A DNA stretch of 64,000 bases from Haloarchaeobius sp. HME9146 (GTDB taxonomy: Archaea; Halobacteriota; Halobacteria; Halobacteriales; Natrialbaceae). Location of the stretch: assembly GCF_025399835.1 (NCBI RefSeq), contig NZ_JAODVR010000001.1, positions 3,286,001-3,350,000 on the forward strand, written 5' to 3'. Positions 11,171-47,285 of this stretch are shown in pieces; within the stretch, counting starts at the first letter, position 1; every line of letters begins with the position of its first letter. Below the pieces are notes generated by a model. It saw nothing but the letters and a program-made list of their open reading frames with translations. It was not told the DNA's origin and did no database searches. The position numbers and the translations under genes were made by a program.

Positions 11171-11290
11171 ACTGACTGTGCGCGAGAGTCACTCAAAACG
11201 ATTTCGGAGACGTTCGGACGTGTGAATGGCTGTCTTTCAGCCGGGCGAAAGGAAGGGCGGGTTCGGGGGCGAAACACGACGACGAAACCG

Positions 11291-11473
11291 GTGTGGCGCG
11301 CGCGGTGTCGTGTGCCGAACACCAGTGAGGCCACGACTCGGAAGCGCGCGAGGGAGGACCGGAGTGAAGCGTAGCGAAACGGAGGGAGTCGGCTGGGGAG
11401 GGTGTGGTGCGGTTGCGGGGCGGTGGCGGGGCGGTGGGGGGCGGTGGCGGTCGTCGCCACCAGCGCGAGGAAC
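11291..11473. repeat. Half copy of the long palindromic repeat (copy A)
   Basis: This stretch matches the right half of the elements at 38657-39071 and 46097-46436: GTGGCGCGCGCGG at 11292, GCGCGCGAGGGAGGACCGGA at about 11344, then GGAGGGAGTCGGCTGGGGAGGGTGTGG (11381-11407 region) and a degenerate end CCACCAGCGCGAG. No left arm with the same core is found upstream, so it is a truncated copy. It occupies the divergent intergenic region between pyrG and the small winged-helix gene; the rest of that region (11171-11290 and 11474-11570) shows nothing else I can identify. Confidence 0.75.
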
Positions 11474-11573
11474 TGAGTTCACGGCTACACGACCGACGAT
11501 GCCAGCTGGACCGACCCCCGACGAGCCGTGATTCCGCCGGTATCCTTCCCGTGGACCCTGAACAATTAGGACC

Positions 11574-37602: not shown

Positions 37603-38559
37603 ATGGCCGGCGAGATGACGACCGAAGTCACCTACCGGCGCGCGACCCACGACGACTACGACGACGTGGTCGCGTTCACGAAGGACACCTGGGCCGACCG
37701 CGACGGGAGCGACTACATCCCGCGCATCTACCACGACTGGCTGGAAGAGGAGGACGAGTACGACCAGCAGTACACCTGCGTCGCCGAGGTCGACGGCCAG
37801 GTCGTCTCCATCGCCCAGACCGTCCTGCTCTCCACCCGCGAAGCCTGGTGCCAGGGCATGCGCACCGACCCCGACTACCGCGGACAGGCCATCGGGCGCG
37901 AACTCACCCACGAGATGTGGGACTGGGCCCGCGAGCAGGGTGCCACCGTCGCCCGCAACATGGTGTTCTCGTGGAACATGATGGGCCTGGGCCACTCCCG
38001 CGGCGTCGGGTTCGGCCCCGCGACCGAGTTCCGCTGGATGCACCCCGAGCCCGATTCGGCGGCGGAAGGTCCCCTCGACACCACCGACGACCCGAACGTC
38101 GCCTGGAACTACTGGACCGACTGCGACGCCCGCGACCACCTCGCCGGACTCGGCCTCGCGATGGACGAATCCTGGGCCGTCGTCGAGTTGCGCCCCGAAC
38201 TGTTCGAACGCGCCGCCGAGAACCAGATGCTCGCCGCCGTAACGAGTGATTCCGGTGTCCGCGGTGTCACGTACCGTGTCCGTGACTACGAGCGCGAGAA
38301 CGAGGAGGGCGAGCCGAAGACCTGGGCCGAGTACGGCGTCGCCGGCTGGGACGACCTCGACGCGGCCCGGGAGCTGGTCGCTGCAGTGAAGCGCGACGCC
38401 GCATCACTGGACGCCGACCACGTCCGCGTCCTCATCCCCGAAACGGTGGAGTACGTGTCGGACGCGTCGTTGCTTCGTGCGGGGATATCGGATGAGCCTG
38501 ACTTCGTGATGGCCGCCGACTTGACGGCCGACTATCGCGGCCAGTTCGGCTCGAGGTAA
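37603..38559 (+). CDS. GNAT-family N-acetyltransferase, 318 aa
   Basis: The N-terminal half is a GNAT domain: YRRATHDDYDDVVAF (10-24), the acetyl-CoA loop RTDPDYRGQAIGREL (about 87-101) in the R/QxxGxG/A position, and NMVFSWNMMGLGHSRGVGF (about 120-138). The C-terminal half (about 170-318) looks like a second, diverged GNAT-like domain. The substrate is unknown. The ATG follows the gatD stop codon immediately, so the genes are coupled. Downstream is repeat copy B. Confidence 0.87.
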   Translation: MAGEMTTEVTYRRATHDDYDDVVAFTKDTWADRDGSDYIPRIYHDWLEEEDEYDQQYTCVAEVDGQVVSIAQTVLLSTREAWCQGMRTDPDYRGQAIGRELTHEMWDWAREQGATVARNMVFSWNMMGLGHSRGVGFGPATEFRWMHPEPDSAAEGPLDTTDDPNVAWNYWTDCDARDHLAGLGLAMDESWAVVELRPELFERAAENQMLAAVTSDSGVRGVTYRVRDYERENEEGEPKTWAEYGVAGWDDLDAARELVAAVKRDAASLDADHVRVLIPETVEYVSDASLLRAGISDEPDFVMAADLTADYRGQFGSR

Positions 38560-38656
38560 CGGGTCGTTCGTTCTCGGATGTTGGAGTGTTCTTGGTCGCT
38601 GTTTTCTGTGGCGATGATACCCGCTTCGAGAGCGACGGAAGTGGTGACGAGCAGCT

Positions 38657-39071
38657 AGCTCGCGCGATGGCAGTGGAGACCGCCACCGCACAGCACCGCA
38701 GCCACGCCCTCCCCAGCCGACTCCCTCGGTTTCGCTTCACTACGTTTCGCTCCACTCGGTCGTCCACCGTGAGAGCAAGCTCTCACGAGCCCGCACTCGC
38801 TACCACTCGTCCGGACCTCGCGCCTGCAACTCGCGGCGTTGCTGGCGCAACGCACGCGATCCGGCGCGCGCCAGACAGGAATTCGGACGCAGTCGCAAGG
38901 AACAAGCTGTCGTTGGCGCGCGCCAGCCGACCGCCGAGCGCCAGTGAGGGTGGCCGGCGGAGCCGTGCGAGGGATGAGCACTGGACTGGAGCGGAGCAAT
39001 GCGGAGCGGAAGGAAGCGCACAATCGGCTGGGGAGGCTGTGGTGCGGTTCCACTGCCATCGCGCGAGTCAC
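38657..39071. repeat. Long palindromic repeat element, full copy (copy B)
   Basis: About 415 bp. The left end reads CGCGCGATGGCAGTGGA (38661) then CCTCCCCAGCCGACTCCCTC (38708); the right end, read on the minus strand, gives GCGCGATGGCAGTGGAACCG and CACAGCCTCCCCAGCCGATT. The arms are thus terminal inverted repeats of about 70 bp, and the inner part also mirrors (GGCGCGCGCCA occurs twice, at 38875 and 38917). It contains frames that are open only through composition and I see no gene in it. It lies between the convergent GNAT and SAMP1 genes; the remaining parts of this 588-bp gap show nothing else. Confidence 0.8.
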
Positions 39072-39147
39072 CGAAGCGGTATCGAGCAGACTGCCGATGA
39101 CGGGAACGCCCGAACACACGGCACAAAAGAACCTCCTGGAATCGTGC

Positions 39148-39435
39148 TTACGCAGAACCACCACTCACGGGCGGGAACAGCGCCAGCTCGTCGTCTTCTG
39201 TCACGGGCTCGTCCATGCCCTCGCCCTCCATCTGGACGTTCGAGCCGTTCTTGAGGATGTTTATCTGCGGGGCCACGTCGCCCTCGTCGTCGAGGACCCG
39301 GTCGCGAAGGCCGGGGTGGGCGTCGAACAGGGCGTCGAGGGCGTCGCCGACGGTCGGGTCGGCGGCCGCCACGTCCACGTCGACCTCCTTCGCGCCGGCG
39401 ACTTCGGCGAGGTCGGCGAACAGCTTCCAGTGCAT
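39148..39435 (-). CDS. samp1: Ubiquitin-like small archaeal modifier protein (SAMP1/MoaD type) with Ser-Ala extension
   Basis: The 95-residue protein matches SAMP1: start MHWKLFADLAEVAGAKEV, middle VGDALDALFDAHPGLRDRV and end DELALFPPVSGG. SAMPs are beta-grasp proteins whose C-terminal Gly-Gly is joined to lysines of target proteins or carries sulfur for molybdopterin. Here the Gly-Gly is followed by Ser-Ala and then TAA, so a free diglycine end would need trimming by a protease. It stands alone, with repeat copy B ending 77 bp after its stop. A plain MoaD role is also possible. Confidence 0.88.
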   Translation of the reverse strand: MHWKLFADLAEVAGAKEVDVDVAAADPTVGDALDALFDAHPGLRDRVLDDEGDVAPQINILKNGSNVQMEGEGMDEPVTEDDELALFPPVSGGSA

Positions 39436-45315: not shown

Positions 45316-46050
45316 ATGAGTACCCGAGAGGTTCCGGACCCCGTCGAGCTCGCGGGGCGGTTCGTGCGGGCCGGCAAGACGAGCGGGGACGCCGAGGCGT
45401 ACCGCCAAGCGCTGGCGACGCTGGACCGGCGGGTCCTCCGCCAGCGCGTGACCGACGACGACGCGAAGCGCGCGTTCTGGCTGAACGTGTACAACGGCTT
45501 CGCGCAGGCCCTGCTCCGGGAGGACCCCTCGCTGTGGGAGAAAGCGGGTCTCCTCCCGACCCGCCCCATCTTCACGGACGCCCTCGTCACCGTCGCCGGC
45601 CACGAGTTGAGCCTCGACGACATCGAACACGGCTTCCTCCGGCGCTCGAAGACGACCTGGGGGTTCGGCTACGTCCCCCGGTTGCGCACCGACTCGTTCG
45701 AGAAGATGCACCGGGTCGAGGAGCCGGACCCACGCATCCACTTCGCGCTGAACTGCGGGGCCGCGTCGTGCCCGCCAGTGGCCGAATACACGACGTCGGG
45801 CATCGACGAGGAACTCGACCGGGTGACCGCGTCGTATCTGCACAGTGAGTGTGACTACGACGAGGCGAGTGACGTGGTCCGGGTGCCCAAACTGTTCTCG
45901 TGGTACCGCGGCGACTTCGGCGGGAAAACGGGAATCGTGCGGTTCCTGCAGGAGTACGACGTGGTGCCGGCCGATGCCAGCCCGAAACTGGCGTATTCAG
46001 AGTACGATTGGTCGCTGAAGCTCGGGGCGTACACCGACCTGGAGGCGTGA
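45316..46050 (+). CDS. DUF547 domain protein, 244 aa
   Basis: The family core is visible: KRAFWLNVYNGFAQALL (residues 55-71), GYVPRLRTD, PDPRIHFALNCGAASCPPV (about 137-155, with the paired cysteines) and a C-terminal LFSWYRGDFGG (about 195-205). DUF547 resembles a transglutaminase/papain-like fold; its activity is unknown. The start at 45316 (MSTREVPDP) is likely leaderless and is used over the ATG at 45289 because the upstream nine residues are unlike the family. It is divergent from the HPP-USP gene. Confidence 0.85.
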   Translation: MSTREVPDPVELAGRFVRAGKTSGDAEAYRQALATLDRRVLRQRVTDDDAKRAFWLNVYNGFAQALLREDPSLWEKAGLLPTRPIFTDALVTVAGHELSLDDIEHGFLRRSKTTWGFGYVPRLRTDSFEKMHRVEEPDPRIHFALNCGAASCPPVAEYTTSGIDEELDRVTASYLHSECDYDEASDVVRVPKLFSWYRGDFGGKTGIVRFLQEYDVVPADASPKLAYSEYDWSLKLGAYTDLEA

Positions 46051-46096
46051 GTCGGGTCGGTAGCTGGTTTTACTCCGTGTTCGTGACGGCGAGCAG

Positions 46097-46436
46097 GTGA
46101 CTCACGCTGGCGTCCATGACCGCACCACAGCCTCCCCAGCCGACTCCGGTGCTCGGCTTCGCCTGCGCTCCTCGTCCCTCGCGCGGCTCCGCCGACCAGC
46201 CTCACTGGCGTTCGGCGGCCGGCTACCGCGCGCCACATTCCTGATTCCCCACCGTGGCGCGCGCGGTCGGCAGTCCGAGCACGAGGCGACCGTGTCGCCT
46301 CGCAGAGCGAGGCTACCGACGAAAGCGCGCGAGGGACGACTGGAACGGAGCGAAGCGAAGTGGAGGGAGTCGGCTGGGGAGGGTGTGGCTGCGGTGCTGT
46401 GCGGTGGCGGCCTCCACTGCCATCGGCGCGAGTCAC
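46097..46436. repeat. Long palindromic repeat element, full copy (copy C)
   Basis: About 340 bp bounded by GTGACTCACG on the left and, on the minus strand, GTGACTCGCG on the right. Inside, both arms carry ACCACAGCCTCCCCAGCCGACTCC or its variant, then CGTCCCTCGCGCG and a central GGCGCGCGCGG tract, so the whole folds as an imperfect giant hairpin. It lies between the convergent DUF547 and nucleoside phosphorylase genes. The flanks of this 503-bp gap (46051-46096 and 46437-46553) hold nothing else that I see. Confidence 0.8.
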
Positions 46437-46553
46437 ATGCTCGTCGCCGCCAGCAGCAGAGACAGAGAAACGACCAGAAGCACCGAACTCAGCACTCAGG
46501 ACGGGACCCGACGGTCACGAAACCGAGAACAGTCGAAACGACCGAAACCCGGT

Positions 46554-47285
46554 CTATTCGGCCAGGTCGCGAACCGCTTCCAGCGAGATGTCGATGGCGC
46601 GCCCGACGTTGTTCTTCGCCTTCTCCGGCAGTTCGTCGTCCTCGGTGTCGGTGCCCTTCTGCGTGCCCAGCACGAGGTTCCCGTCGACGGTGCAGATGGC
46701 CCCGGCAGCCAGACCCTTGCGGCGGGCGAGCGTGAACACGGTCGCGGCCTCCATCTCGACGCTGAGGATGCCGGCGTCGTTCCAGTCTTTCACGTACTCG
46801 TCGGTCTCTGCGTAGTAGGCGTCGTCGGAGGCGATGGGGCCGACGTGGATGTCCTCGTCGTTGGCCTCGGCACCGGCGACGAGCGCGTTCATCACGTCGA
46901 AGTCCGGGACGGCGGGGTACTCGACGGCCTCGTACCGTTTGCTGGTACCCTCGTTCTTGGCCGCGCCGGTCGCGACGATCATGTCGCCGATCTCGACGTC
47001 CTCCTGCAGCGCGCCGGTCGTTCCGACGCGGATGAACGTCTCGACGCCGACGTTCGCGAGCTCCTCGACGGCGATAGCGGCGGACGGACAGCCGATACCG
47101 GTCGAGCAGATGGTCAGGTCGACACCCTCGTAGGTGGCGTTGACGACCTTGTATTCGCGGTTCTCGGCGACGACCTCGCTCTCGTCACAGTGGCCGGCGA
47201 TGCGGTCGACGCGACCCGGGTCGCCCGGAATCAGCGCGATATCGTTCACGTCGCCCTCGTCCACGAGGAGATGCGGTTGTGTCAT
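46554..47285 (-). CDS. Nucleoside phosphorylase (uridine phosphorylase family)
   Basis: The 243-residue enzyme has the NP-I phosphorylase signatures: ALIPGDPGRVDRIA (phosphate-binding, about 17-30), FIRVGTTGALQEDVEIGDM (about 85-103) and LSVEMEAATVF (about 180-190). It should cleave a nucleoside with phosphate to the base and (deoxy)ribose-1-phosphate. The base preference, uridine or guanosine, is not decided by the sequence. The next genes downstream in the region include a PfkB kinase and a ribose-1,5-bisphosphate isomerase, which would take the ribose-1-phosphate on. Confidence 0.9.
   Translation of the reverse strand: MTQPHLLVDEGDVNDIALIPGDPGRVDRIAGHCDESEVVAENREYKVVNATYEGVDLTICSTGIGCPSAAIAVEELANVGVETFIRVGTTGALQEDVEIGDMIVATGAAKNEGTSKRYEAVEYPAVPDFDVMNALVAGAEANDEDIHVGPIASDDAYYAETDEYVKDWNDAGILSVEMEAATVFTLARRKGLAAGAICTVDGNLVLGTQKGTDTEDDELPEKAKNNVGRAIDISLEAVRDLAE

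Follow-up and report, generated by a model that had tools for sequence, protein, structure and literature searches.

BOX repeats of Streptococcus pneumoniae proliferated in the past, and novel insertions are now slow to appear (PMC3049150). They are dispersed, intergenic and non-coding, with variable internal modules and a predicted RNA fold, and in these respects the haloarchaeal family described here is like them. We saw no sequence relation between the two, however, and the haloarchaeal family differs in its strand-specific fold of three or four helices, strong covariation, apparent exchange of hairpins, order-wide range and lack of terminal inverted repeats (TIRs). The ERIC/RU and REP/BIME repeats of bacteria (reviewed in PMC2229807) are also short, non-autonomous, intergenic and structure-forming, and occur singly or as inverted pairs. 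The haloarchaeal unit, by contrast, is not one imperfect palindrome, and no REP-type Y1 transposase was found in the copy-rich genomes.

Close to their ends, the PATEs of the haloarchaeon Haloquadratum walsbyi carry palindromes similar to those of IS605 elements, and they lack both ITRs and target duplications; the MITEs and SMRs of that organism have ITRs (PMC3119063). Our family resembles all three in being haloarchaeal, short, transposase-free and multi-copy, and resembles PATEs further in lacking ITRs and target duplications. Its link to IS605, in contrast to theirs, is a weak hint: a hairpin followed by GGGGAGG at two tnpB 3' ends. Our search of the open-access literature found no description of the family, which does not prove that none exists. 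We consider it a real genetic family, apparently undescribed. By analogy it would work like BOX, ERIC and REP repeats and is putatively one of their kind rather than a homolog, having many dispersed, intergenic, non-coding copies that form structure and that are present or absent between related genomes.

Tracts B and C Are Pairs of Opposed Units

The window, a 64,000-nt stretch of the main contig of the Haloarchaeobius genome, contains two tracts, B (38657-39071) and C (46097-46436), that the initial annotation took for the two full copies of a long palindromic repeat. Both tracts exist, and their inverted arms were confirmed: 38659-38677/39049-39067 (19 nt, 100% identity) and 38702-38720/39024-39042 (89% identity) in tract B, and 46125-46147/46366-46388 (96% identity) in tract C. 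Gene calling also bore out that each tract lies between convergent genes and holds no credible gene of its own. What repeats, though, is a directional unit of ~150-200 nt and not a palindrome of 340-415 bp. Compared with other copies, each tract resolved into a pair of oppositely oriented units, arranged head to head as read on the folding strand (Table 1). The similarity reported as ~70-bp terminal inverted repeats is real, but it belongs to the homologous 3' parts of the two opposed units, and the supposed inner hinge, rich in GGCGCGCGCC, is the place where their 5' ends adjoin. Because most units are single, the end-to-end hairpin proposed for the tracts is not the conserved structure, which sits inside each unit. 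For the same reason, we ruled out the palindrome as the repeating unit.

Table 1. Units, unit parts and flanking genes located in the window.
Feature	Position	Strand	Details
Lone unit, third site	11288-11484	+	R1 118.3 bits; overlooked in the initial annotation; counterpart in the congener (G003) without core
Tract B flanking genes	37603-38559 / 39148-39435	+ / -	Convergent; gene calls
Unit B-left	38644-38831	-	Folding strand -; R1 97.8 bits
B-left core TCGGCTGGGGAGG	38708-38720	-	Reads CCTCCCCAGCCGA on +
Unit B-right	38908-39082	+	R1 91.2 bits
Tract C flanking genes	45316-46050 / 46554-47264	+ / -	Convergent; gene calls
Unit C-left	46086-46241	-	R1 95.5 bits; G003 orthologue at same site, base pairs compensated
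Unit C-right	46249-46447	+	R1 149.8 bits; same site in G003 internally deleted
C-right P1 (GGCGCGCG .. GCGCGCG)	46256-46331	+	Encloses variable hairpin P2
C-right P3	46335-46371	+	GAC (46335-46337) opens, GTC (46369-46371) closes
C-right core TCGGCTGGGGAGG	46370-46382	+	Near-invariant
C-right P4	46373-46427	+	GCTGG (46373-46377) pairs with TCGGC (46423-46427) via G.U wobbles
C-right small 3' hairpin GAGTCACATGCTC (class GAGYNNNNNGCTC)	46430-46442	+	Read from alignment; outside RNAalifold consensus

Unit B-left carries an additional hairpin module, TGAGAGCAAGCTCTCA, at ~38770-38785 at the GAGGGA junction, which marks it as one of an extended subtype and puts its true 5' end near 38875. The subtype is rare; a TGAGAGCAAGCTCTCA-like hairpin was also seen at G000:C1:899317 (G000 being the host genome and C1 its main contig), at L094:390-604 and in L106. 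The last of these is the element at site B in genome G001, where it lies on the opposite strand.

Copies in the Host Genome and Their Surroundings

The core word CCTCCCCAGCCGAYTC matched the host genome 61 times at ≤1 mismatch, against 0 times for the reversed control word, and blastn with tract B gave 76 matches genome-wide. A covariance model built from 41 units (R1) found 65 units, with E-values down to 1e-42. Instead of two copies, then, the genome holds 65, five of them within the window. All 65 are on the main contig and none are on the two other contigs, which make up 0.70 of 4.19 Mb. Using a gene caller trained on acidic ORFs, we found every unit to be intergenic, with none spanned by a called gene. 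Orientation relative to neighboring genes was unbiased (16/15/15/14, with 15 sense and 14 antisense units in tandem contexts), and the convergent setting of tracts B and C does not hold as a general rule. No consistent partner gene was found beside the units; recurrent clusters looked like element translations or common enzymes.

Head-to-head pairs occur in several genera. A gap of 26-31 nt between model bounds was present in 12 of the 19 pairs compiled, and the distance between the two 5' ends is nearly constant across genera, at ~42 nt. Neither tract B nor tract C keeps this spacing, their gaps being 76 and 7 nt, respectively. Pairs with the constant spacing include those at G000:C1 42085-42453 and 664405-664784 and those in L177, L149, L192, L169 and L161.

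The 5' boundary of the units is sharp, but neither a TATA-like signal nor an AT peak at ~-27 was seen there in 60 copies from the host and 99 from other genomes. No Rfam family matched the 64-kb window above its curated gathering cut-off. At lax E-values, site C gave miRNA/snoRNA matches that were chance-like only, and these were set aside.

One Strand Carries a Conserved Fold

On the folding strand, the 5' side of a unit runs from T/GGCGYGYG (P1) through a variable hairpin (P2, often CGAGC..GCGAG) to P1', CGYGCGAGGGA. P3 is opened by GAY-GA and closed by A-RTC, and is followed by a nearly invariant UCGGYUGGGGAGG. In the host genus, the 3' part has three pieces: a (GCGGT)n-like linker; CCAYTGCCAYCRGC, which pairs back to the core (P4); and a small end hairpin, GAGYNNNNNGCTC. 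Judged by eye from the alignment, the long type of P3 has an NNANN/NNANN stem with a central A.A or A.G mismatch that changes in concert. The 5' domain is common to all genera aligned and the 3' part differs between them; of 114 copies outside the host genome, 42 have a GGACTGAAAGGG-like motif in this part. At L097, L082, L184 and ~40 other loci in other genera, the 5' domain is followed, 26-108 nt 3' of the core, by another conserved module, GGTGGGACTGAAAGGG(G)C.., which units of the host genome lack.

We examined these helices in an alignment made blind to structure (A1) and in three that were fitted to the model and so lean towards it (A2-A4). RNAalifold on A1 predicted 25 pairs, 14 of which had two-sided changes, and the reverse complement of A1 had no consensus fold. 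Among 30 units from other genomes, aligned by fitting to R1 and thus leaning to that model, 95.9% of cells were paired, compared with 79.3% after shuffling and at most 46% when partners were slid. In these same R1-fitted units, two-sided changes occurred in 19 of 25 pairs versus 10 in shuffles. Wobble pairs were also strongly asymmetric: G.U outnumbered A.C by 88 to 5 in A1 and, across 91 copies from named genomes, by 245 to 7. For the base pair adjoining the core, the combinations as they read on the other strand were C/G in 29 cases, T/A in 25, C/A in 4 and T/G in 0. We dropped the top strand (core CCTCCCCAGCCGA) as the folding strand on the basis of these counts. Given the excess of G.U over A.C pairs, and a reverse complement that yields no consensus fold, a single folding strand is required, not double-stranded DNA.

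This requirement bears on whether the units are chromosomal DNA-level sites, bound by a nucleoid or recombination protein, with a fold that is incidental or a cruciform. The restriction of all host copies to the main contig and the near-constant spacing of head-to-head pairs would suit such sites, but a single folding strand would not, nor would the copies on Halorussus megaplasmids described below. We consider this explanation very unlikely.

Folding energy is not the evidence for structure, since single units had a mean z of about -0.3 on both strands, near that of shuffles. Unit C-right had z -1.8 versus -0.4 for its complement, and tract B as a whole folded far better than its shuffles (z -7.6). 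The near-shuffle energies of single units are what shared low-complexity G+C bias would predict, as are the high G+C content and the short purine and GCGGT repeats within units. Such a bias has next to no chance of explaining the family, given the core-word count against its reversed control, the covariance-model E-values and covariation far above both shuffled and slid controls.

As read from aligned sequences, then, one strand carries a predicted P1-P2-P3(-P4) structure that is conserved, with the fold kept while the letters changed. The initial annotation had suggested a MITE or a structured RNA family. The second suggestion is supported to the extent that many genera conserve a single-strand fold in which covariation is abundant; action as RNA is putative.

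Units Stay at Their Sites while Their Hairpins Change

Site B is empty in genomes G002, G004 and G005 and holds a related element in G001; the congener, G003, has a gene there. That gene (L104, G003:C1:1395500-1397700) is unrelated and starts MDRRRYLILGSGLLSTIAGCSETE, by eye a lipoprotein-like signal. Site C has no element in G001, G004 or G005, and G003 keeps the left unit together with an internally deleted right one. Within 1.2 Mb of G003, 29 sites were placeable, and 20 units were accepted as orthologous, all in the same orientation. At sites 102808 and 452692, the two that we aligned where G003 has no core, the G003 sequence resembles decayed remnants. This presence and absence, together with the remnants at syntenic sites, supports reading the family as dispersed repeats.

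The 20 orthologous units have resided long at their sites, and differ in 157 base pairs. Of these changes, 82 were two-sided and still paired, 52 were one-sided and still paired, and 23 were broken, whereas shuffling predicts 43, 65 and 77, respectively. The low number of broken pairs supports constraint on the fold at kept sites. The core differs at two positions in total over the 19 orthologous comparisons in which it was correctly located.

These paired changes do not look like point mutation compensated in place, which we disfavor. Identity between orthologous units was 0.48 in P2 and 0.57 in P3, versus 0.47 and 0.55 between non-orthologous ones; for the 3' part, the values were 0.61 and 0.49. 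Orthologous P2 and P3 hairpins are thus no more alike than paralogous ones, which suggests that they were replaced and that structure was kept through exchange. Copies within the host genome are mosaics: similarity in P2 does not track similarity in P3 (r -0.03), identical P3s stand beside unrelated P2s, and only 1 of 1225 copy pairs has ≥85% identity in both. No donor copy was identified, so we infer the exchange step from these comparisons; with selection keeping the fold intact, hairpins may have passed between copies by gene conversion or by a process akin to homing.

One unit of G003 (L290:15203-15446), orthologous to the one at G000:C1:721902, has its GCGGT-type linker expanded to a microsatellite-like tandem array of GTTCGGTGCG units. 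This expansion is found in G003 only.

The Family Spans the Order

R1 matched 26 of 41 genomes (host included) with 1 to 65 copies each. Copy number is patchy among relatives, from 0 to 65, and the copy-rich genomes are G000 (65), G031 (54), G003 (51) and G029 (44). R2, a broader covariance model of the 5' domain, was run on a sample of 293 genomes of the order and matched 172, in 50 of 87 genera; the other 121 genomes had no match. In a sample of 197 genomes from the phylum, all 16 with R2 matches belonged to the order. Named carriers include Halorussus, Halosimplex, Halococcus, Haladaptatus, Haloarcula, Halolamina, Salinibaculum and Natronomonas. Some large haloarchaeal plasmids carry units, including Halorussus megaplasmids. 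Contrary to the expectation that open frames in such tracts are often called as proteins, no annotated feature lies under any best match in the plasmid records (one of which is unannotated). The viral contigs and phages searched had no match to the family.

The main rival to the repeat reading is a structured RNA or RNP that functions for the host. The folding strand would be transcribed, P1-P3 would present GAGGGA and UCGGYUGGGGAGG to a protein or RNA, and the copies would provide dosage or local action. This would fit the strand-specific fold with G.U pairs, the purine-rich single-stranded core that is near-invariant across genera and the structure retained at orthologous sites. It sits poorly with the lack of a TATA-like signal at the 5' boundary, the even numbers of sense and antisense units in tandem contexts and the many genomes of the order that lack the family. 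We give it a substantial minority chance. The proposal that the units encode a new class of haloarchaea-wide structured RNA, an RNP component with tens of loci per genome, reshuffled hairpins and a fixed core, seems to us rather unlikely.

Search for a Mobilizing Enzyme

Profile searches did not support dependence on TnpB, Y1 or reverse transcriptase. TnpB (PF07282) had no match in the host genome, and relatives G009 and G024 have 19 each. Y1 transposase (PF01797) had no match in the copy-rich genomes G000, G003, G029 and G031, and no reverse transcriptase was found in the 17 genomes searched, G000 included. Target site duplications, suggested earlier as a point to check, were not enriched over shuffled pairings for k = 3-8. 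Individual units have no terminal inverted repeat, as their ends differ (T/GGCGCG versus the end hairpin). No clean pair of recently filled and empty sites was found, the flanks being too diverged.

These results are hard to reconcile with a classical MITE of a DDE-type ISH element. The copies are short, dispersed and intergenic, and have been gained and lost at sites, as such MITEs would be. A strict MITE fails on the absence of per-unit TIRs and target duplications, on the dissimilarity of copies in P2 and P3 and on the conservation of structure after insertion, and we regard this origin as extremely improbable.

Strand-specific folding of a single strand is typical of the IS200/IS605 group. 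Units could be PATE- or REP-like derivatives of this group, that is, ends or omega-RNA of TnpB elements mobilized by Y1, and the shared style of folding favors this. So do two tnpB 3' ends of G009 (L294:1354-1424 and L295:1288-1405), to which R2 had weak matches (E 0.26 and 0.007, respectively): these ends, of the TnpB omega-RNA/IS1341 type, carry a GAGCGA..GAGCGA hairpin and then GGTGGGGAGG on the same strand. They read GAGCGAACGGC..GCCGTGAGCGAGTAGGGTGGGGAGG, resembling P3 plus core in the same orientation. Their upstream helices are different, however, P1 and P2 are missing and the G-rich segment is itself paired. Such hairpins are also common in these genomes, and the copy-richest genomes lack Y1, with the 65-copy genome lacking TnpB as well. 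Derivation from IS200/IS605 elements is thus improbable in our judgment. From sequence likeness, the tnpB ends and the units may possibly share an origin, or may both use a hairpin theme common among haloarchaea.

Interpretation and Significance

Our best explanation for the observed unit, strand, fold, copy number, distribution, long site residence and mosaic hairpins is a family of haloarchaea-specific, dispersed, non-autonomous intergenic repeats, BOX/ERIC-like, in which one strand of the ~150-200-nt unit must fold. We hold this tentatively, at somewhat less than even confidence. Copies would have arisen through past transposition-like spread, and new insertion would now be rare in Haloarchaeobius. 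Some machinery acting in trans would recognize the folding strand in its folded, single-stranded form, as RNA or as ssDNA, together with its fixed segments GAGGGA and UCGGYUGGGGAGG. Selection on fold and core, plus exchange of P2 and P3 among copies, would maintain the intact ones. The intergenic spread in random orientation, the uneven copy numbers among genomes and the sites gained or lost are consistent with a non-autonomous repeat. Against this reading stand the lack of TnpB, Y1, reverse transcriptase or a partner gene in the genomes searched and the lack of a target duplication. Long site residence and a near-invariant core fit a host function too.

The family is present, at up to 65 copies, in over half of the haloarchaeal genomes sampled, yet it is absent from Rfam. 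Its intergenic tracts can now be annotated. The constraint on the fold of one strand is backed by much stronger evidence than folding energy, and hairpin exchange between copies appears to be visible at fixed sites. Whether the folded strand is RNA or ssDNA, and what binds the invariant core, have become testable questions. With this family, the archaea gain a clear counterpart of the bacterial BOX/ERIC repeats.
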